From a virus, in IMG/VR virus record IMGVR_UViG_3300031652_000010, positions 1-38,266 of that record: a stretch of 38,266 bases of DNA; one strand, given 5' to 3'. The position numbers and the translations under genes were made by a program. Below are positions 4,261 to 27,265 of the stretch, piece by piece. Below the pieces are notes generated by a model. That model worked only from the letters and a program-made list of their open reading frames with translations. It searched no databases and had not been told where the DNA came from. Each line of letters begins with the position of its first letter. Position 1 is the stretch's first letter.

Positions 4261-4449
4261 TTAGGGTTTTGTAAACTCACGTCGCGCCTCCAGGTGCTTG
4301 GCCAGCACGATTTTCGCGCCAAGTTCGTCCTGCTCATAGATGTCGCGCAGCGTTTCCTCGCGGGTGCCCGATTGCCGATCACAGCCCAAATTCTCGGTAG
4401 TGATTCGCACCCACAAATCGATTGTGGCCAATTCTTCCCGCTTGTTCAT
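4261..4449 (-). CDS. Small protein (62 aa), unknown function
   Basis: The ATG at 4449 overlaps the previous stop (GCATGA) with GAGG just upstream. The product is mostly helical and charged, with one Cys (LGCDRQ). It is coupled to the ribbon-helix-helix gene upstream, the arrangement seen when a small DNA-binding protein and its partner are co-translated. Toxin/antitoxin identity is possible but unsupported by any motif. Confidence 0.5.
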   Translation of the reverse strand: MNKREELATIDLWVRITTENLGCDRQSGTREETLRDIYEQDELGAKIVLAKHLEARREFTKP

Positions 4450-4637
4450 GCGGCCTCTTCGTAATCACGTAGCAAAAAAGGCGCGGAAGCGATGGCACCG
4501 AGCGTGAGCGCCCGTAGTCCTTCACTCCGCGTCTGGAAGCCCAGCCGCGCTATCAGCCGGTCAAGCTCGGCCAGTTCCGTCGGACTCAGTTTGAATCCGG
4601 CAATCTCTGTTCTGGAATCCTTCGACGATTGTGTCAT
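4446..4637 (-). CDS. Ribbon-helix-helix (CopG-like) DNA-binding protein
   Basis: 63 residues. The core has strand EIAGFKL, helix SPTELAELDRLIARLG, a turn, and helix TRSEGLRALTLGAIA, which is the ribbon-helix-helix fold used by small dimeric repressors. AGGGGG lies 3 nt before the ATG, and a TTGACA promoter lies about 40 bp further upstream. It heads the leftmost small-gene operon. Confidence 0.65.
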   Translation of the reverse strand: MTQSSKDSRTEIAGFKLSPTELAELDRLIARLGFQTRSEGLRALTLGAIASAPFLLRDYEEAA

Positions 4638-4671
4638 ATGCCCCCTGGCTTGTGTTAACCAGCCCGGAAAG

Positions 4672-4701
4672 ACGTTAACCTTGCCGCCCGTAGCTTGTCA
4701 A
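4672..4701 (-). promoter_or_regulatory. Putative promoter for the ribbon-helix-helix gene
   Basis: Minus strand: perfect -35 TTGACA (4701-4696), then an 18-bp spacer and TAACGT (4677-4672) as a weak -10, 34 bp before the ATG at 4637. The -35 is strong and the -10 poor, as in promoters that need or respond to a regulator. Confidence 0.45.
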
Positions 4702-5029
4702 GGGTTTCGTTTTCATGTTGTTTCTGTGGCGATTCTGGCGGTTGCCGAAAGGTCGGTTTAACGGTCATAAGGAAGGGGTGGCCGTTGGGTGGAACATTGG
4801 TGCAGGTGAACATCAGGGCGCGAGCTTTCATCCGTAGACCGTCCGCGAGACGCCAAACACGGCGATGCAACCCGTGACTGCTGGCTCCGGCTATGACCGA
4901 CCAGGGCGCTCCGCAGCGTTGCCTGGATTTCGCTTGTGGACCGGTGCCGTCTCTTCCCGTTGCGATTCGGAGGATCCTGCAAATGCTCCCGGCTCGCCTA
5001 CGGTGTCAGAAGAACCGTCGCACCGGGAC
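4702..5029. other. Stretch with no convincing gene
   Basis: Between the small-RNA terminator and the promoter at 4701 I see only a poor minus-strand frame (ATG 4831 to stop 4655, MKARALMFTCTNVPPNGHPF onward). It lacks a good ribosome binding site and its last codons contain the TTGACA promoter. It probably is not translated. Confidence 0.4.
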
Positions 5030-5152
5030 AAAAGAAAGCGCCCCGTGTGCTAGCGTCCAGCCTCTTAGAGGAAAGGCTCCCGGCAAGAAGCCGGGGAAGC
5101 AGCACGGGGCGCCTATGATAGGCTAAGCTGAATCCTCTAAGATTCGGGCGCC
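5030..5152 (-). ncRNA. Candidate structured small RNA with complementary hairpin loops and intrinsic terminator
   Basis: Reading the minus strand, hairpin B is GAATC-TTAGAG-GATTC (5145-5130), then hairpin GCCTA-TCA-TAGGC (5123-5111). A closing stem GCGCCCCGTG/CACGGGGCGC (5112-5103 with 5047-5038) encloses a CCCGGC-TTCTT-GCCGGG hairpin (5095-5079) and hairpin A AGCCT-loop-AGGCT (5078-5059). The loop of A contains CTCTAA, the exact complement of the TTAGAG loop of B. The match extends to 10 nt (5072-5063 with 5142-5133), suggesting a kissing-loop or alternative fold. The closing stem is followed by TTTCTTTT (5037-5030), so it also acts as terminator. A promoter lies at 5186-5158. The stretch has no open reading frame of note. 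Target and role are unknown. Confidence 0.6.
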
Positions 5153-5157
5153 AACCT

Positions 5158-5186
5158 AAAATAGCAAGACTTTTTTCTCAGATCAA
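5158..5186 (-). promoter_or_regulatory. Putative promoter of the small RNA
   Basis: Minus strand: -35 TTGATC (5186-5181), 17-bp spacer containing an A-rich run, -10 TATTTT (5163-5158). The -35 overlaps the stop codon of the winged-helix gene. Transcription would start near 5151, at the first base of the structured region. Confidence 0.55.
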
Positions 5187-5414
5187 GCGCACAGCAGGTA
5201 CGGGCAGCATCCGGCCGTCCCAGGAGGGGCGCCGTACCTTGAGCACCTGGAACCTGCCAGTCGCTATGAGCTCCGGCATCTTGCGGCGCATGGCCTCGGC
5301 ACTGATACCCAGTGCGGTTGCCAGTTCTCTGGTGGTCATGGCGTCTGCTGGGTCCCTGCTTTCAAATGCGGCACGGATCTCGTCTAGGATCTGTGCTTCA
5401 GTGGGAATTGACAT
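5178..5414 (-). CDS. Small winged-helix/helix-turn-helix protein
   Basis: 78 residues with AAGGAGG 6 nt before the ATG. Residues about 26-50 (TTRELATALGISAEAMRRKM) form a clear helix-turn-helix, followed by PELIATGRFQVLKVRR and a short strand, as in a winged helix whose wing is the WDGRMLPVPAVRL segment. It is likely a DNA-binding regulator of the phage or an accessory factor. It lies between the metallophosphoesterase and the small-RNA gene. Confidence 0.65.
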   Translation of the reverse strand: MSIPTEAQILDEIRAAFESRDPADAMTTRELATALGISAEAMRRKMPELIATGRFQVLKVRRPSWDGRMLPVPAVRLI

Positions 5415-5425
5415 CGGTTGCCTCC

Positions 5426-6334
5426 TTACGCTGCCGTCCAGATCCTGCCACGGCTCGGCTGGTGGATGTCGAAAAAGACGGAGTAGGATCCGTCATCAAT
5501 CAAGATCCAGTACATACCGACATCGGCCAGGCTTTCGGGTACTCGCCTGTGGACATAGGACGTAGCGAGCTGAAATGCCGGGCCCTGGATCACGCGCGTC
5601 GGGTGCGCATCATATGAATCTGAGTGCCTGTGAAAGTGGGCGCGAAGGGCGAGGTCCGGAAGCCGCCAATCCTCGATCCGCTCGTGAATGCTTTTCTTGT
5701 TTTCCCCCTTCGCCTTTCGGAGTTCCTTTAACAGATTGTACTTCTCCTTCACCCTTTCGGCGACAATCTGAGCCGCCAGTAAGTTGGTCGCATTTGCTTG
5801 CGTCCACGGACGGTATCCCGTGCGGCCATGATGGAGCACATCCACGTAGACACCCTCGATATCGGCCATCAGGTGCCACCACGATGCTGTACCCGTCTCT
5901 TCGCATGATTCGACGGGCCAGTCGTCAGATAGTGCTTTGGCGATGCCCTCTTCGGAGCTTGCGCCCTTGCCGACATGGGATTCCGTACCACGGATGATGA
6001 AAATACGCTTGAGGTCGAGGGCGAGTGGGTAGTCGAGCACATCGCGCACCACCTCACGCTCCTGCGTGTGTAGTGCCGAGATGCTTTGATGCGTGCCATG
6101 ATGCCCGGGTCCATCCGTCAAGTCGCCGTTATTCACCCACCAGAGCTCGGCATCATGCTTCTGGGCGCATTCTGCCGCCGCATCCCAGCCCCTGCGCCAG
6201 CAGTCCCAGAGCCAGAGCTGGCCCGGGCTGGCATGATACTCACCGCCATCATCGTAGAGGATCGGTTTCGGTGAGCAGAGCCCTACGGTAGAGCCACAAT
6301 GTTCATCCGACGTTACCGCCAAGAGTACGGCCAT
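5426..6334 (-). CDS. Metallophosphoesterase (calcineurin-like)
   Basis: 302 residues. The motifs of the calcineurin-like family are present in order: D-x-H (D10, H12), N-x-G-D-x-x-D-G at 68-75, a G-T-E-S-H motif at 116-120 in place of the usual G-N-H-E/D, V-L-H-H-G at 166-170 and a H-F-H near 233-236. These ligate two metals in phosphoesterases acting on nucleotides or nucleic acids. Residues about 195-230 are a charged helical insertion. AAGGAGG precedes the ATG. A 10-bp-arm inverted repeat separates it from the gene upstream. Substrate unknown. DNA or nucleotide turnover is one possibility, not shown. Confidence 0.75.
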   Translation of the reverse strand: MAVLLAVTSDEHCGSTVGLCSPKPILYDDGGEYHASPGQLWLWDCWRRGWDAAAECAQKHDAELWWVNNGDLTDGPGHHGTHQSISALHTQEREVVRDVLDYPLALDLKRIFIIRGTESHVGKGASSEEGIAKALSDDWPVESCEETGTASWWHLMADIEGVYVDVLHHGRTGYRPWTQANATNLLAAQIVAERVKEKYNLLKELRKAKGENKKSIHERIEDWRLPDLALRAHFHRHSDSYDAHPTRVIQGPAFQLATSYVHRRVPESLADVGMYWILIDDGSYSVFFDIHQPSRGRIWTAA

Positions 6335-6450: not shown

Positions 6451-7062
6451 CTACTTGTTGCGGAAGTAGTCGCGCCACTTCGCCACACTCTGCCAGCCAA
6501 GCGGCTGATAGCCGAACCTCGCTTTCACGAACTCCGAGAGATCGATGTAGGCCGCCCTGATACCCGAGCCCCGGATGTGGTAGCTCTGGTCGATCTGCGC
6601 GGCATAGTACATCAGCCAGTACGTCAGCTTGTCGATATCCGGGATCGGCAGCTCGTCCATGTTGTTCTGGACCTGCCAGTCAACATTCTCAGAGTAGCCG
6701 TCGGCCTCTAGGTAGCGTCTGCCCGAATTGCTGGCATATTTGCCCACGAATTCGGGCCAGCCGAGTTCGGCCCACTGATCAACGTGCCGCTGTTCGTGCC
6801 GAATCAGCCGGTCCATTTCATCGGCACTATCAAACTTCTGATCCCGCACAAAGACGACCGTGCCATGTGCCGGGATATCAAGTGTGATGGACCAGGAGAA
6901 TGGCACAAAGCCCGGGATCTTCCTGATCGTGTATTGGTTGCCCTTCGGTGTTGACCGGATACCCTCGTAATCCGCTGGCGGATCGCTCACCCTGTCAGCG
7001 AGTTCCAACAGTAGCGGCCCGAGGATCTTGAGCAGTTCGCCCCATGCGCCGTAGATATTCAT
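6451..7062 (-). CDS. Putative HExxH zinc metallopeptidase
   Basis: 203 residues. H89-E-Q-R-H93 followed by V-D-Q-W matches the H-E-x-x-H-V-x-Q pattern of DUF4157-like metallopeptidase domains. An acidic residue about 25 further on (YLEADGY) could be the third ligand. The N-terminus has a hydrophobic stretch (LLKILGPLLLELA), and the C-terminus a YWLMYYAAQ segment that may associate with membrane. The start overlaps the holin-like gene by 4 bp. Its place in the lysis region suggests action at the cell envelope, but peptidase activity is inferred from the motif only. Confidence 0.5.
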   Translation of the reverse strand: MNIYGAWGELLKILGPLLLELADRVSDPPADYEGIRSTPKGNQYTIRKIPGFVPFSWSITLDIPAHGTVVFVRDQKFDSADEMDRLIRHEQRHVDQWAELGWPEFVGKYASNSGRRYLEADGYSENVDWQVQNNMDELPIPDIDKLTYWLMYYAAQIDQSYHIRGSGIRAAYIDLSEFVKARFGYQPLGWQSVAKWRDYFRNK

Positions 7063-8710: not shown

Positions 8711-9577
8711 TCAAAGTTCCTCAATCAGGGCAAAGCCCTGTCCTGCCCACATACTGAAAGGCATCTCCAATGGCGAAAGCTCACGGAGTGTGCAAAGCAG
8801 CGAACGCCGATGCATATGCACGGTATCCGCCGGGTCAAAGACGAAGAACAGTTGGTTGGCTGTACCCAGTGCCCGCTGAATCTCGAAGCCATGTACCCAT
8901 GCCTCATCGGTGTCAATCATGGGCAATGCGAATCGGAACACCCGGCGCCTGGATCGGTCAATATGGATAGCTGCACCACCATCAGATTCAGTGCGGTCAG
9001 AAGATGTTTCCCAGCCAAAACCGCCGCCCTTGGCCAGTGTAATCGTTGGCTGATAGGCAGAGCAGACACAAAGGCGTGCGAGCTCGACATAGCCATCGGC
9101 ATTTGCCGTGTCACTGATTGCGATTCGCCAGTAGCGTGCGGATGTCGGTGTAGTCAACACACAGACATAGGGTACCGGATAGCCTGCACTCCAGTCTTCG
9201 GCCGTGAGTTGCTGGTCGCGGTCGGTAGGATCAATCCAGGTAGGCATTGCTACCGGGTAGATATCGCCAAATGCACTGAGTGCGGTCGAATCATATAGTG
9301 GTGTAGCGAAGTCTGCCGCATCATCGCCATAGATCCGCACTGTCGCAGCAAGACTCAGGTTGTGCTTTGGGATGGCCACAAAGCTGATGTACCTAGCCAC
9401 ACCCAGGTCCACATCAAAGGTGGTAGACGCCTCCTGAGCGTCTGTCGAGCGGGCCACCCTACTCAGGCGCCGGTCAGCCAGGTTCGTGAGCGGTAGTGCC
9501 GTCTCCCAGGAGCCGCCACTAAACGCCGCATCGGCATGATCACTGTGGATTGGGTAGCCAAACATGCAGTTTGCCAT
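8711..9577 (-). CDS. Tail-tip associated virion protein
   Basis: 288 residues. The N-terminus (FGYPIHSDHADAAFSGGSWE, then LPLTNLADRRLSRVARS) and the following beta-rich region resemble discoidin-like virion proteins of siphophages that follow the tail hub gene. Residues about 45-160 look like a jelly-roll (FDVDLGVARYISFVAIPKHN). It is the last gene before the terminator, as expected for the end of a tail operon. Confidence 0.5.
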   Translation of the reverse strand: MANCMFGYPIHSDHADAAFSGGSWETALPLTNLADRRLSRVARSTDAQEASTTFDVDLGVARYISFVAIPKHNLSLAATVRIYGDDAADFATPLYDSTALSAFGDIYPVAMPTWIDPTDRDQQLTAEDWSAGYPVPYVCVLTTPTSARYWRIAISDTANADGYVELARLCVCSAYQPTITLAKGGGFGWETSSDRTESDGGAAIHIDRSRRRVFRFALPMIDTDEAWVHGFEIQRALGTANQLFFVFDPADTVHMHRRSLLCTLRELSPLEMPFSMWAGQGFALIEEL

Positions 9578-19792: not shown

Positions 19793-20097
19793 AGGCCAAT
19801 CACCACCCTAGCCAGAATCACGTAGCCATCGGGTGCGAGTGGCTGAACACTCTTCACCGTATAGGTTATGCTGGCCCAGTCCGTTGTATCGCCAACTTGT
19901 GGCACCTCACCATAGGTTTGGGCCACGAAAAGCAGGGTTGGCGCTTCATATTCCACGAGGCCAAGCGCCTTGTATGTCTCGGGATCGCCCCGTACCTGCA
20001 TTGCATTGCCCGTCACAGTAGTTGTGACTGGCGATGTCGTGGTGTCAGTCGTGGCATCATAAGTGCCTGGCGTTGTGTGGGTGAACGTGACGGCCAT
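19789..20097 (-). CDS. Head closure protein
   Basis: 102 residues, almost all beta (TTTSPVTTTVTGNAMQVRGD; PTLLFVAQTYGEVPQVGD; ASITYTVKSVQPLAPDGYVI). The GD-T-W-x-x-x-x-Y-T-V-K-x-V-x-P end is common to siphophage head-closure/stopper proteins encoded just before the gp10-like gene. It starts at a TAATG overlap with the giant repeat gene. Confidence 0.65.
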   Translation of the reverse strand: MAVTFTHTTPGTYDATTDTTTSPVTTTVTGNAMQVRGDPETYKALGLVEYEAPTLLFVAQTYGEVPQVGDTTDWASITYTVKSVQPLAPDGYVILARVVIGL

Positions 20098-22991
20098 TAT
20101 ACTCCCGCCTCCATGATGTCCTTAAGTGCGGCGGCCCATTCCTCCTCGAAATTGCCTACATCACCAATATCAGCCAGGGCTGCGGCGTGTTCTGCCGCGT
20201 ACTTGCCCTGTACGGGTACGTGACCCGAGATATAGGACCGTTCGAGCACTGTTTCCGATGTACCGGCTGCGGTAGCAATACCAGAGCGGGTGACATTCAG
20301 TGTGGCAGCCGCTGTTGCCGCACCATCAGCCGAGAATGTCGTGGAACGGAACGCCTGTGCCGAAACCGTCGCATCGGAATCACCTGCGGCCGTGGCCGCA
20401 GCACCGCGATATGCAGCGGCACTGGCTGTGACAGAGCCTTCACCATCAGCCGCTGTGGTGGCTGGCAGTACAGCACCCGCAGCGAGAAGCGCCGTTGTGG
20501 AGCTCGTACCATCTGCCGCTGCACTGGCGACACGGATAGCGGCACAGTTGGCAGCAACAGTAGATACGCCCGCAGCCGATGTGCTCGCGGTATGGATGGC
20601 GGCAAGCGATGCACTTGCGGTAGAGGTGCCCTCAACTGTTGCCGTCCGGGTCAGCCCAGCCGTTGCATACAGCGCAATAGATGCCGCACCATCTGCCTGC
20701 GTGGTGAGTGAACGGAAAGCATTCGGCGTTAGTGTGGCCGCTCCGATTCCAGCCGCTTCCGTGATGGCCGCAGCAATCCGGACACCCGCAACATCCGCCG
20801 CTGATGTGCCAGCAGCCGCCGCAGTCCCGGCCCGGAACGCCGTAGCGGTGGCAGTCGCCGTGGGGATGCCGGCTGCCGTGGCCTGTGCCGCCCTGAATGC
20901 CGTGAGTGCTGCGGTAGCAGACGAGGTGCCAGCCGCAGATGTGGCGATTGAGCGGAACGCATCAGCCGTGGCCGTGGTGGTTGAAATGCCATCGGCCTGC
21001 GTGGTAGCTGCACGGAAAGCCGTTAATATGGCTGTAGTTGTTACGACACCAGCAGCAGCAAATGTCGTCGAACGGAAGGCCGTAGCCGATACCGTAGCCG
21101 TGGAAGTGCCCGATACCGTCGCCAACAGACTGCGGTGGACATAGAGCTCTGCGGCCGCTGTGCCTGTGCCAGCAGCCTGTGATATTGATGGCTGAAGTCC
21201 ACCACCAGACAGAAGCGCAACCGTAGAACCCGTACCATCGGCTGTTATGCTTAGGGAACGGATAGCATTCAGCGAGACCGTAGTGGCAGCAGAGCCAGCA
21301 GCGGCAAATGTCGTGCTCCGGTAAGCAACAGCGGAAACCTGTGCTACTCCTGTCCCGGATGCCGTAGTCGTTAGCGCCCTGATCGTGTTCGCGGTAACAT
21401 CTGCCGACGCTGTGCCACCCACAACGGCAACACAGGATGCCAGGAACCTATCCAGATCAACCGTTGTGACTGCTGTCCCACCAGCGGATACAGTACCAAG
21501 TGTACGGATAGCCGCGAGCGTTACCGATGCCACACCCGTTCCTGCCGCACTAATCTGTGCCGAACGGATAGCACCAGCCGTAACCAACGCCGAGCCAACA
21601 CCAGCAACCTGGCCCGTGGCATGCTTTAGGGCGAGCACATCCGCAATAGCAGAAGCCGACCCAGCGCCCGAAGCCTGTAATGAGTGGACAGCATTGGGCG
21701 TTACCGTAACTATGCCAACACCATCAGCCTGGGTTTCGGCGTAACGCAGTGCCGTGAGATTGGCAACATTCGCCGCAACGCCATCGGCCTGCGTAGATAC
21801 GGTGCGAATGGCATTGGCCGGAGAAGAAGCCACACCCAGACCAGCGGCCGAAACCACACCCAACGTCCTGATTGCTACCGGAATTGCCGCTACGGAACTT
21901 GTACCACCGGCCGCAACAGTGCCCTCAGTCGGTGCTTGAATTGCCTCAATATCGGCCGTGGTCGCCGCGATACCGTCAGCTTGGGCACTAAGTACCCTGA
22001 ACGCCACTAAGTCCGCTGTAGCGGCACCTAGGCCGGTTGCTGTGGCTTCTGCATGGCGGATGTTGTTTGCGGATGCGGAAACCGAAGCTGTGCCAGCCGG
22101 TGACGCGGTGCCAAGCGTTCTGAGTGCTATGGGAGCGGCTGTGGTCGCCGCTGATCCAACTGCTGAAGCTTGTAGGTAATGGATAGCAACCAGCGAAACA
22201 GATGCTGTACCAACACCCGCAACAGATGCCGTGCCAAGAGTACGGATTGCCGTGAGATCAGCCGATGTAGAAGCTACACCATCAGCCGTTGCTGTCCCTT
22301 CGGTGGGTGCTTGGATGGCTTCAATGCTGGCACTAACAACGCCAAGCCCATCGGCTTGGGCACTGATACTACGAATTGCGTTTGATGTTACCGTCGCTTG
22401 GCCCGCCGCAGCCACTGTAGCAGCCGCCGCACGGTACGCCACGAGACTTGCACTTGCCGTCGAGGTGGCATTGATAGCCTCCGAGTCCAGGAGGCGGACA
22501 CGATCCAGTGTGACAGCAGTTGCACTCGTGCCATCAGCCTGGGTTTCAACAAGGCGCAGGACATTCAGGCTTGCGGAAGTGGTACTGATGCCGATTGCCT
22601 GGCCATCTAGTGCCCGGACAGCATTTGCCGTCAGGGTGGTGGTGCTTGTACTGGTCGCAGTAGCTATGCCCGGCCTGAGCGCCAGCGGTTCACCTACTGT
22701 ACTCGACGTACCCGCAACAACAGCAGTGCCAAGTGTGCGGATAGCGGCCAGATTGACTACGGTTGTAGACGAGGAATCAACCTGGGTAACAACTGAACGG
22801 ACCGAGTTGGCCGTTACTGTTGCCGCACTCAAGCCACCCACCTGGGCAGCACCAGCCACAATAGCAACAAGCGTTAGAACAACCGCACCAATACCCGCTG
22901 CTGCTGCCGAACCCTCTATCTGTTCGCCGGCAGCTTCGGCTTCTAGGATCTCACCTAGTGCAGTCGATGCAACGGGATCGTGGCCAAGCAT
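20097..22991 (-). CDS. Giant Ala/Thr/Gly-rich tandem-repeat protein (964 aa)
   Basis: Residues about 26-919 are about 43 tandem copies of a 20-residue unit that begins A-[AD]-G-[TVI]-[GSA], continues with alternating small and beta-prone residues (T, V, S, L) and ends in A-[IFVY]-R followed by a short linker (S-L-x-T). Regular hydrophobic/polar alternation and one Arg per unit suggest a beta-solenoid or fibrous rod. The last 45 residues are non-repetitive and acidic (FEEEWAAALKDIMEAG), and the first 25 are helical. There is no signal peptide or enzyme motif. Its place between the fibre-type protein and head closure suggests a virion fibre or decoration, which is inference. Not recognised as a known family. 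Confidence 0.8.
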   Translation of the reverse strand: MLGHDPVASTALGEILEAEAAGEQIEGSAAAAGIGAVVLTLVAIVAGAAQVGGLSAATVTANSVRSVVTQVDSSSTTVVNLAAIRTLGTAVVAGTSSTVGEPLALRPGIATATSTSTTTLTANAVRALDGQAIGISTTSASLNVLRLVETQADGTSATAVTLDRVRLLDSEAINATSTASASLVAYRAAAATVAAAGQATVTSNAIRSISAQADGLGVVSASIEAIQAPTEGTATADGVASTSADLTAIRTLGTASVAGVGTASVSLVAIHYLQASAVGSAATTAAPIALRTLGTASPAGTASVSASANNIRHAEATATGLGAATADLVAFRVLSAQADGIAATTADIEAIQAPTEGTVAAGGTSSVAAIPVAIRTLGVVSAAGLGVASSPANAIRTVSTQADGVAANVANLTALRYAETQADGVGIVTVTPNAVHSLQASGAGSASAIADVLALKHATGQVAGVGSALVTAGAIRSAQISAAGTGVASVTLAAIRTLGTVSAGGTAVTTVDLDRFLASCVAVVGGTASADVTANTIRALTTTASGTGVAQVSAVAYRSTTFAAAGSAATTVSLNAIRSLSITADGTGSTVALLSGGGLQPSISQAAGTGTAAAELYVHRSLLATVSGTSTATVSATAFRSTTFAAAGVVTTTAILTAFRAATTQADGISTTTATADAFRSIATSAAGTSSATAALTAFRAAQATAAGIPTATATATAFRAGTAAAAGTSAADVAGVRIAAAITEAAGIGAATLTPNAFRSLTTQADGAASIALYATAGLTRTATVEGTSTASASLAAIHTASTSAAGVSTVAANCAAIRVASAAADGTSSTTALLAAGAVLPATTAADGEGSVTASAAAYRGAAATAAGDSDATVSAQAFRSTTFSADGAATAAATLNVTRSGIATAAGTSETVLERSYISGHVPVQGKYAAEHAAALADIGDVGNFEEEWAAALKDIMEAGV
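20235..22916 (-). repeat. 60-bp protein-coding tandem repeat array (about 43 units)
   Basis: Each unit is about 60 bp. Most copies have diverged, but short blocks recur almost unchanged, such as ADG units preceded by TQ or AQ, and IEAIQAPTEG, which occurs twice about 120 residues apart within similar neighbours (units 10-12 and 16-18). This points to growth by both single-unit and multi-unit duplication. Confidence 0.8.
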
Positions 22992-23001
22992 CAGTTAGTT
23001 C

Positions 23002-24999
23002 TCATGGTGTCGGATACCCGTAAACGGCAACTCTGCCACTGGTGATGTTGCCTGCGGAAAAGAGGAACCGGATGGCGTCATTGACCTCCAATGCCTCTAC
23101 CCAGCCGGTGCAAGCCAGATTTAATGGCTGTCCATTCGTCCTTGTATAGCAGATTTGCCCTATAACGTAGGTTCTTACACCGGCCTGGTCTATGCCAAAG
23201 ATCCCAAGATCCATAAAGAGCCATTCATTGGTGTCACCACCAACACCACCACCGAGCTTGATGAAGGAATCCGAGCCATCTCCCTCACCTACCACAGCCG
23301 TAATCCAAGAAGCTGTGTTGCACCACTGATAATCGCTTGCACCCGCCCGGAAGGAGGAGCCGCCATCATTGGAAAGACGAAGCATCCCATCGACCCCGTC
23401 ATTCGCTTGCTTGATCCATCCCCTGATTTGGACGCTCTCGTATCCTGAAATGTCGATGTCCAGCGTAGCAACATCGGAGGGTTCATAGACACTGATATTC
23501 CGGACGGGCACCTCTTTGGGCAGTGTGATGAACACATCCTTGGTGCCAACACTGAGATCCACCAGCGATCCGGCATTAGAGGACGCGATAACACTGTCAC
23601 GAGAGAGCGTGTCAGGATCAGCATCGGTAACCGTGCCAACACCGATCTCCCATTCGCCCTCTGAATCACCGCCGGCCCGGCCCACAATGGCATAATAGAC
23701 TTCGTTACCGTCACCAGCCCCGGCAACAAAGCCCTGGTATCCCGTCTCGGCGCCAGCCAGATCGACAGTTCCAGTGCCTTCTGTTGTCGTGGTTTCCTTC
23801 ACGCGATTTGCTAGCACAATGCCCATGATATATATCGTCTTTTCTATGGTTGCCGCAGCGGCACCAACACCAGCAATGGCCGCAGAAGCTGTTCTAATGG
23901 CCACAAGATCAGCAGTGCTTACACCCACACCAGCCGCACTAGTGGCATTCAGTGGACAGAAGCGCGATATATCGACTGCTGCTGAGGATGTACCGCCAAT
24001 TGTTACTGTGCCATGACGCCAGCCGGTGATCCCCGCCGTGGTGGTAGAAACACCATCAGCCTGGGTACTTACTGTGCGGAATGCTACGGGGGAAACCGTT
24101 GCCGCACCTGTACCAGTAGCCAGGGCATCGGCATAGCGGACCGCAACGGGCGAGACCGTGGTGGCGCCAACACCACCAGCCTGTACGGCACCCAATGTCC
24201 TGAGACAATCCGGCCAGATCTCCAGTGTACAGGAACCGGCGGCAGAGGCGATAATCGTTCTATTCGCTGATGGGTCAACAACAGCCGAACCGATACCTGC
24301 CGCGCTAGTCTCACCAGAAGCAATGATGGTTAGTCCAACAACCGCAGCGGCCACACCAGATACCACGGCATCAGCCAGCCGCTTGGCTGTGGTTGTCGCA
24401 ACAATCGTTGCCGCGCCCGCTACTGCGCCAAGTGTCGCTTCCTTGGGGCCAACACTAGGAATGGCCGTGATCTGGGGCCAGAGATCGGGGTTGCCTGTGT
24501 CTGGATAGGTGAAATCAAACACGTCACCAGCGACGCGATACATCCTGAAGTAGACAACATCACTCGGACTGACCGTGCCCGATGGCATGGTGACACAGAA
24601 CTGGAACTCTGTGAACTCTTTCTTATCGAACGTGTGCAGGATGGATACAGCGGAACCACCGCCACGATAGGTGCCATTTGCCCAGCTACCGGCTGCACCA
24701 GAGTCTAGAAGCTGAGTGTCACACGCCGTACCATCTGATGGCGTTCCGGTACTTATCCAAGCATCGGGCAATGCTGTCCAAGAGCCGGTGACCGAGTTAA
24801 GCTGATATTGGATGTAGAGGTCTGCGGTGCCCGATCTATTGCCGTCCTCATCCAGCCCGATACGAACCATTAGATTCGTATCCATTGGCCATTCTTGATC
24901 TATGGCATTATCCGCACCTATCTGCGTACACGTATCGGGATCAGAACTGTCGTCCCGAAAGAACCCCCACGTGTGCATATTGAGGTTCGGATATGCCAT
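23002..24999 (-). CDS. Repeat-containing virion fibre-type protein (665 aa)
   Basis: Three parts. Residues 1-190 are beta-rich (HTWGFFRDDSSDPDTCTQIG; FTEFQFCVTMPSGTVSPSD). Residues 191-390 are ten 20-residue repeats of the same family as the giant repeat protein. Residues about 392-480 are a widely distributed phage fibre-base domain (ANRVKETTTTEGTGTVDLAG, GYQGFVAGAGDGNEVYYAIV, LSRDSVIASSNAGSLVDLS). A C-terminal domain of about 185 residues follows. The fibre-base domain makes a virion adhesin or decoration the best guess. No RBS or gap separates it from the giant repeat gene beyond 10 bp. Confidence 0.65.
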   Translation of the reverse strand: MAYPNLNMHTWGFFRDDSSDPDTCTQIGADNAIDQEWPMDTNLMVRIGLDEDGNRSGTADLYIQYQLNSVTGSWTALPDAWISTGTPSDGTACDTQLLDSGAAGSWANGTYRGGGSAVSILHTFDKKEFTEFQFCVTMPSGTVSPSDVVYFRMYRVAGDVFDFTYPDTGNPDLWPQITAIPSVGPKEATLGAVAGAATIVATTTAKRLADAVVSGVAAAVVGLTIIASGETSAAGIGSAVVDPSANRTIIASAAGSCTLEIWPDCLRTLGAVQAGGVGATTVSPVAVRYADALATGTGAATVSPVAFRTVSTQADGVSTTTAGITGWRHGTVTIGGTSSAAVDISRFCPLNATSAAGVGVSTADLVAIRTASAAIAGVGAAAATIEKTIYIMGIVLANRVKETTTTEGTGTVDLAGAETGYQGFVAGAGDGNEVYYAIVGRAGGDSEGEWEIGVGTVTDADPDTLSRDSVIASSNAGSLVDLSVGTKDVFITLPKEVPVRNISVYEPSDVATLDIDISGYESVQIRGWIKQANDGVDGMLRLSNDGGSSFRAGASDYQWCNTASWITAVVGEGDGSDSFIKLGGGVGGDTNEWLFMDLGIFGIDQAGVRTYVIGQICYTRTNGQPLNLACTGWVEALEVNDAIRFLFSAGNITSGRVAVYGYPTP
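23830..24429 (-). repeat. Ten 60-bp coding repeats in the fibre-type protein
   Basis: Exactly 200 codons arranged as ten 20-residue units, for example ATGTGAATVSPVAFRTVSTQ and AAGVGVSTADLVAIRTASAA. They are interchangeable in style with those at 20235-22916. Confidence 0.8.
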
Positions 25000-25000
25000 G

Positions 25001-25336
25001 TTACTTGCCCCTTACCTCTAGCACATACTTGTCGCGGATCTTGTGCCATTCCTCTTGTACCGGCACCCACCAACCGTTGCGATAACAGGTATAACGGCGG
25101 ACGTGGCGAGTGAGTTGATCGAACAGACCACGATCATCGAAGTTGACCCATCGGCCAAGCTCCTCGTCATAGAGATAGTTGTTCACGTCCCGCAAAATGT
25201 CATAGCTAAATCCTGGCTGGAGCACGAGCACAAGCCCGATCTCCGGGCTTTCCCACGGCTTACCATCGGCATCCGTGAATTCGGTGCCGTCAAAATAGAC
25301 GAGCTTCCAGCGGTACGTGGGCGGCGTGAATGTCAT
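25001..25336 (-). CDS. Small beta-rich protein (111 aa), unknown function
   Basis: The start at 25336 overlaps the stop of the protease gene (TGATG). The product is rich in Trp and Tyr (TYRWKLVYFDGTEFTDADG; YTCYRNGWWVPVQEEWHKI) with a soluble beta/alpha look. No family is recognised. Coupling to the subtilase suggests the two work together, perhaps as an inhibitor or partner, but the sequence does not show this. Confidence 0.5.
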   Translation of the reverse strand: MTFTPPTYRWKLVYFDGTEFTDADGKPWESPEIGLVLVLQPGFSYDILRDVNNYLYDEELGRWVNFDDRGLFDQLTRHVRRYTCYRNGWWVPVQEEWHKIRDKYVLEVRGK

Positions 25337-26811
25337 CAATCCCTCTGGTTCTTGGCACAAAGGAAGCTCTTTTTGTTCTTGGCCTTGCAGAGCGTGATCG
25401 TATCGGTCTGGCTCCACAGACCGGGCTCAAGCGTTATATCTATCGCCCTGGTTCTCACCTCATATGTGCCCAGGCTCATGAAGTCTTCCGTGCCCCACGC
25501 GGCCCAGATACCCGGTGAATCGGCGTAGCCTACCTTATTCCACGCCGAGTCTGGATGTAGGAATCGTGTCCAGCCCTCGAAGTTTCTGAGCAGAGCAGTA
25601 TCACCATCCCATGTGAAATAAACACGCACACCGAGATACGGCACACCATTGGCGCCCGTCATCCACTCGACGCCGGTTTGCACTGGTGCGGGCAGGATAA
25701 CCACATCAGGCGGCGGCCCAAGATCTGGATCGTGCTCAGGCAAGGAATAGAGCATATGGGCATTGTCGGTCTCGGCCTCCCAGACGCGGTTCTTCGATGC
25801 AAACGACAGAACAGAGTCGTGGATTTCGGTTGCTGGAATGCCCCCAGCCCACAGCAATGCGGCCACACCCGCCACATGTGGTGCAGCCATAGACGTACCG
25901 TCCTTCAACCCATAACCACCGGGTAGCGCAGAATAGATGTCTACACCGGGTGCGAATAGATCGACACATTCGCCCCAGTTGCTCCAACTCGCCCGCCAAT
26001 CGAGGCCATTCTGGATGCCTGTCGCACCCACAGTGATAACACCGGGAATCCTTGCAGGTGTCTGGAGGCATGCGTCACGGTCGGAATTGCCTGCGGATAC
26101 CGCACCAACAAAGCCAAGACCCAAGAGTGTGTTTACCGCATCAACAATTGCCACGCTGCCGCCGCCAAAACTCATGTTGAACACACCGGGAGGCTGACCA
26201 GCCATCCAATCCACAGCCATGAGTATGATTTCAGTCGGCGTCGAACCACTGCATCCAAAGACACGCACCACAACGATTTCAGCACCAGGAGCCACACCAA
26301 CTGTCTCGCCTGCTATGGTGCCAGAGACGTGCGTGCCATGGCCCATACAGTCCGAGCCATCTTCGCCAAACGCGTCAAAGCCAAAGAGAGCACGCCCGCC
26401 AAACTCCGGATGCGTCCAGTCGATGCCTGAGTCCACGACATAGACGCGCACACCCGCACCCGTGCCGGGTGGCAGATAGCTGTCATCAAGTGGCAAATCC
26501 CGCTGATCGATACGATCAAGGCCCCACGGCGTCTGATCGAGTGTCATAACACCATCGGGCTCGACGTAGCGGACATGGGGATTGTGTCTCAGGCCAATGG
26601 CCTGGGCTTCATTCAAGTGCGCCGTGAAGATGCCTAGCCTGGAGAAATGCTTCTCTGGCACGACATTTGGCGCATTGCTCGGGTGGCCTCCAATGAGATA
26701 CAGGCCGGGCGGGACCACTGCCAGCTCGGGCTCAATGCCCGGGGCAGTGGCCGTATCCGCGCAGCCAATCAGGAGGAGAGCCAAGGCCAGCAAGCTGGTC
26801 CATCGCATCAT
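25336..26811 (-). CDS. Subtilisin-like serine protease (S8) with lipoprotein signal
   Basis: 491 residues. A signal peptide ends in a lipobox (LLLIGC, Cys17), so it should be exported and lipidated. Residues about 30-90 resemble an I9-type propeptide. The catalytic core follows: D127 in VVDSGID, H158 in GHGTHVSG, oxyanion N242 in SAGNSD and S307 in GTSMAAPHVAG. All are intact. Residues about 380-480 look like a fibronectin-type beta domain. GGAGGCTT precedes the ATG and a hairpin lies just upstream. Presence inside a phage structural operon is unusual. It may act on the host surface, on competing phage or on virion proteins. The Cys-A-D-T-A-T-A-P lipobox context resembles Gemmatimonadota lipoproteins. 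Confidence 0.9.
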   Translation of the reverse strand: MMRWTSLLALALLLIGCADTATAPGIEPELAVVPPGLYLIGGHPSNAPNVVPEKHFSRLGIFTAHLNEAQAIGLRHNPHVRYVEPDGVMTLDQTPWGLDRIDQRDLPLDDSYLPPGTGAGVRVYVVDSGIDWTHPEFGGRALFGFDAFGEDGSDCMGHGTHVSGTIAGETVGVAPGAEIVVVRVFGCSGSTPTEIILMAVDWMAGQPPGVFNMSFGGGSVAIVDAVNTLLGLGFVGAVSAGNSDRDACLQTPARIPGVITVGATGIQNGLDWRASWSNWGECVDLFAPGVDIYSALPGGYGLKDGTSMAAPHVAGVAALLWAGGIPATEIHDSVLSFASKNRVWEAETDNAHMLYSLPEHDPDLGPPPDVVILPAPVQTGVEWMTGANGVPYLGVRVYFTWDGDTALLRNFEGWTRFLHPDSAWNKVGYADSPGIWAAWGTEDFMSLGTYEVRTRAIDITLEPGLWSQTDTITLCKAKNKKSFLCAKNQRD

Positions 26812-26875: not shown

Positions 26876-27265
26876 CTAATCTTCAGTTATGGTAATATTC
26901 CCCACGGCGAACGTGGCCTGATCTCCCACACCAATCGCCAAGGTGGTGACCGTTGCCCAGTACAGCATGTTACCAGCAGCACTCGCGTCCAGCAGTGCCC
27001 AGCCAACTACGGTATAGGCAGTCGCACAAGTGGCAAACGTGACGGCAGCCGTGGTCTTGATTTGCCCGTCAGTCGTGGCACCAGCCGTGCAAAATGCTGT
27101 AGTCACGCGCAGATAGCTGGAATCAGTGACTTCAGTGCCACCAGAGGCATCGGACGGAATTGCCGTAAACAGCGCAGACCACACGACACCAGGAGTCGTG
27201 TAAGCCACACTGTTGGCAACATGGTCCAAGACCTTGTTTTCGAGGTAATCGCACTTGCTTCCCAT
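26876..27265 (-). CDS. Phage tail/fibre-type protein
   Basis: 129 residues of a common phage family: a Y-L-E-N-K-V-L-D-H-V start, VWSALFTAIPSDA, a G-G-T-E-V-x-x-S-S-Y-L-R motif, and a C-terminal WATVTTLAIGVGDQATF ending in a beta strand. Such proteins occur next to fibre genes and are thought to be virion components with beta-sandwich folds. AGGAGCAAACTGAA precedes the ATG. Confidence 0.65.
   Translation of the reverse strand: MGSKCDYLENKVLDHVANSVAYTTPGVVWSALFTAIPSDASGGTEVTDSSYLRVTTAFCTAGATTDGQIKTTAAVTFATCATAYTVVGWALLDASAAGNMLYWATVTTLAIGVGDQATFAVGNITITED

Follow-up and report, generated by a model that had tools for sequence, protein, structure and literature searches.

What lies in the noncoding stretch that separates the late operon of this phage from its ribbon-helix-helix operon, and does it give rise to a small RNA, a terminator or a folding switch? 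The window, the whole stretch of DNA analysed here (38,266 bases), is a linear and partial phage record from IMG/VR, and all of its confident genes lie on the minus strand. In one related record, the counterpart of the terminase-side genes comes only after 18 kb, which suggests that the present record is incomplete. The landmarks of the record are as follows.

36971-35613, minus strand: terminase large subunit
35609-33906, minus strand: portal
8306-7803, minus strand: amidase-type endolysin
7062-6451, 6334-5426 and 5414-5178, minus strand: genes between the endolysin and the noncoding gap
5177-4638: noncoding gap of 540 nt, between the late operon and the ribbon-helix-helix operon
4637-4446, minus strand: small protein with a weak ribbon-helix-helix match, first of the second block

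The structural and tail genes, also on the minus strand, have counterparts in related records. A subtilisin-like serine protease (25336-26811, minus; Pfam S8, 3.8e-38) with an apparent lipoprotein signal, LLLIGC, occurs among the structural genes. Two MptE-like proteins (PF01973; 30816-31910 and 27267-28316, minus) are located on either side of the capsid-region genes and look like paralogues, since both correspond to one and the same gene in related phages. Degenerate repeats rich in alanine and threonine (about 19 residues each, recognized by eye) run through two long proteins at 20097-24999 (minus); Tandem Repeats Finder detected no DNA repeat there, so the protein repeats appear to be old or diverged. 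Next to the gap, the 302-aa protein encoded at 5426-6334 (minus) is without a family match, has an unannotated homologue in phage MW202647 (30% identical) and shows an N-terminal match in another related record (43% identical). Beyond 4637-4446, the second block continues with several small genes and encodes a ParB-like protein at 1112-78. The motif GTTAAC occurs at only two sites in the record, 20 bp apart and just upstream of the ribbon-helix-helix gene (4654-4701, minus), and one of them is located beside a perfect TTGACA (4701-4696), at the distance of a -10 element. Judged by these motifs, 4654-4701 resembles a promoter under autoregulation, with a pair of operators.

Across 4638-5177, no frame gave a convincing coding signal and codon-usage scores were negative in nearly all frames, which bears out an earlier note on this DNA that had seen no protein frame here. 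Inside this gap and directly after the late operon lies the RNA element, 5151-5030, with the following parts.

5158-5186, minus strand: putative promoter with TTGATC (5186-5181), a 17-bp spacer and TATTTT (5163-5158), matching the consensus at 8 of 12 positions
5030-5151, minus strand: predicted noncoding transcript of about 122 nt, from the fold and the lack of coding signal
5130-5145, minus strand: hairpin 1, GAATC-TTAGAG-GATTC, from the folds
5133-5142, minus strand: TCTTAGAGGA, complement of 5072-5063, containing TTAGAG (5140-5135)
5111-5123, minus strand: alternative hairpin GCCTA-TCA-TAGGC, from prefix folds, in transcripts before the terminator forms
5036-5114, minus strand: predicted terminator stem of 12 bp (5114-5103 with 5047-5036), with exact 10-nt arms at 5112-5103 and 5047-5038
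5079-5095, minus strand: hairpin 2, CCCGGC-TTCTT-GCCGGG, from the fold
5059-5078, minus strand: hairpin 3, AGCCT-TTCCTCTAAG-AGGCT, from the folds
5063-5072, minus strand: TCCTCTAAGA, complement of 5142-5133, core of a kissing loop or of a nested alternative helix
5030-5037, minus strand: TTTCTTTT tract after the stem, the putative terminator tail

The RNA folds with a minimum free energy of -55.8 kcal/mol (z -4.0), and none of 200 shuffles was as stable. In a coarse scan of the record, 4 of 477 minus-strand windows of 120 nt had a lower z, at least one of which (27121-27240) is coding. The most structured of these minus-strand windows reached z -7.1 in the coarse scan and -5.5 over 27110-27240 (minus), where a long hairpin is located within the first part of the coding region 27265-26876.

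As in an intrinsic terminator, a GC-rich stem (5114-5103 / 5047-5036) is directly followed by a U-rich tract (5037-5030). The long GC stem ending in TTTCTTTT that the earlier note had described is present, with arms at 5103-5112 and 5038-5047. In the predicted fold, it gains 4 further inner bp and encloses two hairpins. Its size departs from the usual range: the stem-loop spans about 78 nt with a branched interior, whereas the usual TransTermHP criteria, as cited in PMC12207403, allow a loop of up to 13 nt and a stem-loop of up to 59 nt. Terminators mapped by Term-seq in several bacteria have a median loop of 4 nt (PMC12207403). The stem was absent from the list of a simple scan. A transcript from the plus strand folds well too and was rejected as a candidate, as no T tract follows the stem on that strand. 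The site probably acts at the RNA level, as a branched intrinsic terminator that closes the late genes, and is quite possibly a discrete small RNA as well. The stretch 5151-5030 is both noncoding and structured, as is expected of a small RNA gene.

Inverted repeats within a noncoding gap could also reflect an element acting as DNA, i.e., a mobile inverted-repeat insertion, an origin or a packaging site. This is very improbable, given that the 10-mer has no copy in the window beyond its two arms, no flanking duplication was seen and the T tract is found on one strand only; the mobile insertion was rejected on the first two grounds.

The earlier note had pointed to two hairpins with complementary loops, extendable to 10 nt. 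The exact 10-nt complement is there (5142-5133 / 5072-5063), with CTCTAA (5070-5065) inside its second segment. By itself, a 10-nt complement at such a distance is not unusual: eight 10-nt inverted repeats at a spacing of 20-80 nt occur in the window, compared with 3.8 +/- 2.8 in shuffles. With the terminator stem kept and the rest shuffled, an 8-nt complement positioned in the loops appeared in 0 of 2000 shuffles and a 10-nt complement anywhere between both parts in 9 of 2000, both being post hoc figures for a site chosen because of that very feature. Across 0.96 Mb of phage loci, related ones and others, a descriptor combining a U tract, a distant stem and a loop complement returned a complement of more than 5 nt at this site alone.

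The promoter elements proposed in the earlier note stand at their positions, and a TG precedes the -10 element by one base; the quality of the match is no better than chance by count. Sites matching at 8 or more of 12 positions numbered 29 on the minus strand compared with about 41 in shuffles and were thus not enriched, while those that also carried TGn numbered 2 compared with 3.35. The patch at 5156-5185 has 30% GC compared with 57% in the record, within the lowest 0.1% of 30-nt windows. With its match at chance level by count, 5186-5158 is a weak candidate for an independent promoter.

Such counts bear on a first alternative, in which the site is a late-operon terminator only, the promoter and the 10-nt complement are coincidences and no separate functional RNA exists. 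Shuffles yield promoter matches of this quality just as often, about four 10-nt inverted repeats are expected per window at such spacing, and conservation was found in none of the collections searched. A branched stem-loop of 78 nt nevertheless exceeds the usual terminator range (PMC12207403), no shuffle placed the complement in the loops, and the element was unique among the loci scanned; we regard this alternative as fairly unlikely.

The two hairpin loops are exactly complementary, as in a kissing loop. In the predicted fold, however, the loops are UAGA and CCUCUA, so that the full 10-nt complement runs into both stems. Opening both loops costs 4.1 kcal/mol compared with about 4.3 kcal/mol returned by the 6-nt loop pairing (5 bp predicted, nearest-neighbour), and a static kissing loop is therefore possible and not favoured. 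The same 10 nt are also predicted to form a nested long-range helix that is mutually exclusive with the terminator stem. What remains of the kissing loop in the earlier note is the exact loop complement, with a static contact that is about neutral in energy and a competing helix. That note had predicted a kissing-loop fold and suggested that the RNA could be a regulator or decoy. Taken as a stable small RNA whose kissing loop is permanent, this reading has the exact loop complementarity in its favour, while the neutral energy, the lack of a target among the translation starts of the phage and the lack of homologues that could show covariation make it quite unlikely. No pairing of the RNA with these translation starts was better than in shuffles, which leaves the regulator or decoy role unsupported rather than refuted; any function in trans would be conjectural.

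In folds of the growing transcript, the nested helix has a probability of about 1 in transcripts ending from 5063 to about 5045, 0.29 at 5042 and 0 at 5039, by which point it is replaced by the terminator stem. At full length, the terminator fold is better than the best fold lacking the terminator by 3.4 kcal/mol (start at 5151) to 5.8 kcal/mol (start at 5153). The best fold without the terminator stem reaches -52.4 compared with -41.7 +/- 3.3 in shuffles, none of 600 being as stable, and the direct barrier between both folds is estimated at 18-20 kcal/mol, an upper estimate that ignores pseudoknotted routes. Pairing of the 5' GCGCCC with the 3' arm of the terminator was matched by 53 of 5000 shuffles. 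The predicted folds thus include mutually exclusive terminator and antiterminator states, and the modelled folding of the growing transcript is attenuator-like. An extension of the nested helix well beyond 10 nt was strong against full shuffles and failed when the flanks alone were shuffled (746 of 5000), and it was not counted as separate evidence. As there is no significant contribution from sequence flanking the ten bases, switch and kissing loop both interpret one and the same signal.

A transcription attenuator would take the nested helix (5142-5133 / 5072-5063), helped by the 5' GCGCCC pairing, as its antiterminator state, with a phage factor or the folding kinetics choosing between a stop at 5030 and read-through to the ribbon-helix-helix operon. 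The helix probabilities, the stability of the terminator-less fold with its estimated barrier of 18.5 kcal/mol and the pairing of the 5' end all agree with this reading. It is set back by the failed extension, which makes it largely the same signal as the complement, by the advantage of the terminator fold at full length, by a downstream gene that starts about 390 nt away with its own TTGACA element (4701-4696), and by the lack of any known ligand or factor. An attenuator is in our view unlikely.

Relatives of the element were sought in several collections. No Rfam family matched the RNA (covariance models, gathering threshold), in line with the remark in the earlier note that it matched no phage RNA known to its author, and sub-threshold matches (RsmY, miRNAs) were noise. 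A DNA search of phage and plasmid records gave nothing useful. A pattern built on the 10-nt pair found four contigs in IMG/VR; the two examined were tRNA-bearing regions with an unrelated inverted repeat, and the other two came from similar 160-kb phages. A looser pattern found four IMG/VR stretches, none of like architecture. The proteins encoded at 5426-6334, 6451-7062, 4446-4637 and 8711-9577 had no close relatives, and that at 5178-5414 had no match in phage records. Neither the 10 loci of portal relatives nor the 44 loci of tail relatives contained matching DNA, a descriptor match or a match to a covariance model, which was built from one sequence and has a short reach. Short matches in two records covered 21-26 nt of a CCGGC hairpin, antisense within genes, and were rejected. 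In 439 bacterial genomes, no homologue was found either: 289 were searched by DNA and belong to the same class as a Rhodospirillales MAG, and 150 were searched with the RNA model and belong to the same family as an Acetobacteraceae MAG. Between the relatives and the present phage, structural genes are roughly 30-75% identical and the lysis-end region is not shared, so that the lack of a match among them says little against conservation.

The explanation we prefer, with about an even chance of being right, is a structured noncoding RNA, about 120 nt long and self-terminating, at the junction of the late and ribbon-helix-helix operons. It is favoured by the stable fold (z -4.0), the noncoding gap with its visible stem and T tract, the 78-nt branched stem-loop unlike a plain terminator, the loop-positioned complement that shuffles did not reproduce and that was unique in the sequence scanned, the confident genes all on the minus strand with the site right after the late operon, and the AT-rich promoter patch. 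Counting against it are the lack of a homologue, the chance-level promoter count, the four windows with lower z and the lack of a small-RNA target among the phage's own translation starts. From the features, thermodynamic folds, chance tests and location we infer that such an RNA is transcribed, terminated and stable. Its source would be the AT-rich promoter (5186-5158) or the 3' tail of the late mRNA. While the RNA is being made, its two complementary 10-nt segments would first pair with each other over a long range; after completion of the 3' arm (5047-5036), it would rearrange to the terminator fold with hairpins 1-3, whose loops may touch. The GC-rich stem and U tract would have two roles, stopping late transcription as its intrinsic terminator and forming the 3' end of the small RNA.

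To our knowledge, few phage noncoding RNAs have been described outside model phages. The present RNA, which has no relative in Rfam or the collections searched, is predicted from one sequence; should it prove to be transcribed, the phage would have a compact RNA whose folding switch, located at an operon boundary, can be tested. It is doubtful that it represents a new phage RNA class at the late/early boundary, in which the 10-nt helix, formed first, would either lock the nascent RNA in read-through or hand over to the branched terminator. If true, such a class would be a built-in kinetic switch that couples late transcription to the next operon.

Among known systems, the lambdoid late-leader RNA, i.e., the 6S RNA from pR' ending at tR', likewise combines a promoter (putative here), a short structured leader and a terminator at the boundary of a gene block, downstream of which further genes follow. 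In contrast to it, no Q-like gene or qut site was identified here, the sequence is unrelated, and the genes downstream of the element are not late genes within the record. The HK022 put antitermination RNA is also a structured phage leader, with two hairpins, whereas the structure here ends in a terminator; sequences were compared via Rfam only. C4 and OOP-type antisense RNAs are short phage-encoded noncoding RNAs, OOP being transcribed from its own promoter (PMC12197685); the element here differs in having no antisense target in the window and no Rfam match. Attenuating leaders and riboswitches share what is predicted here, a terminator fold and a second strong fold that exclude each other, but in this case there is no known aptamer (Rfam negative), no conservation was found and the downstream gene is far. 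Canonical intrinsic (Rho-independent) terminators likewise close an operon with a GC-rich stem and an immediately adjoining U-rich tract, and have a short loop (median 4 nt, stem-loop limit 59 nt; PMC12207403) in place of the 78-nt branched stem-loop. We would class the element as an orphan among phage noncoding RNAs or terminators, a known kind.
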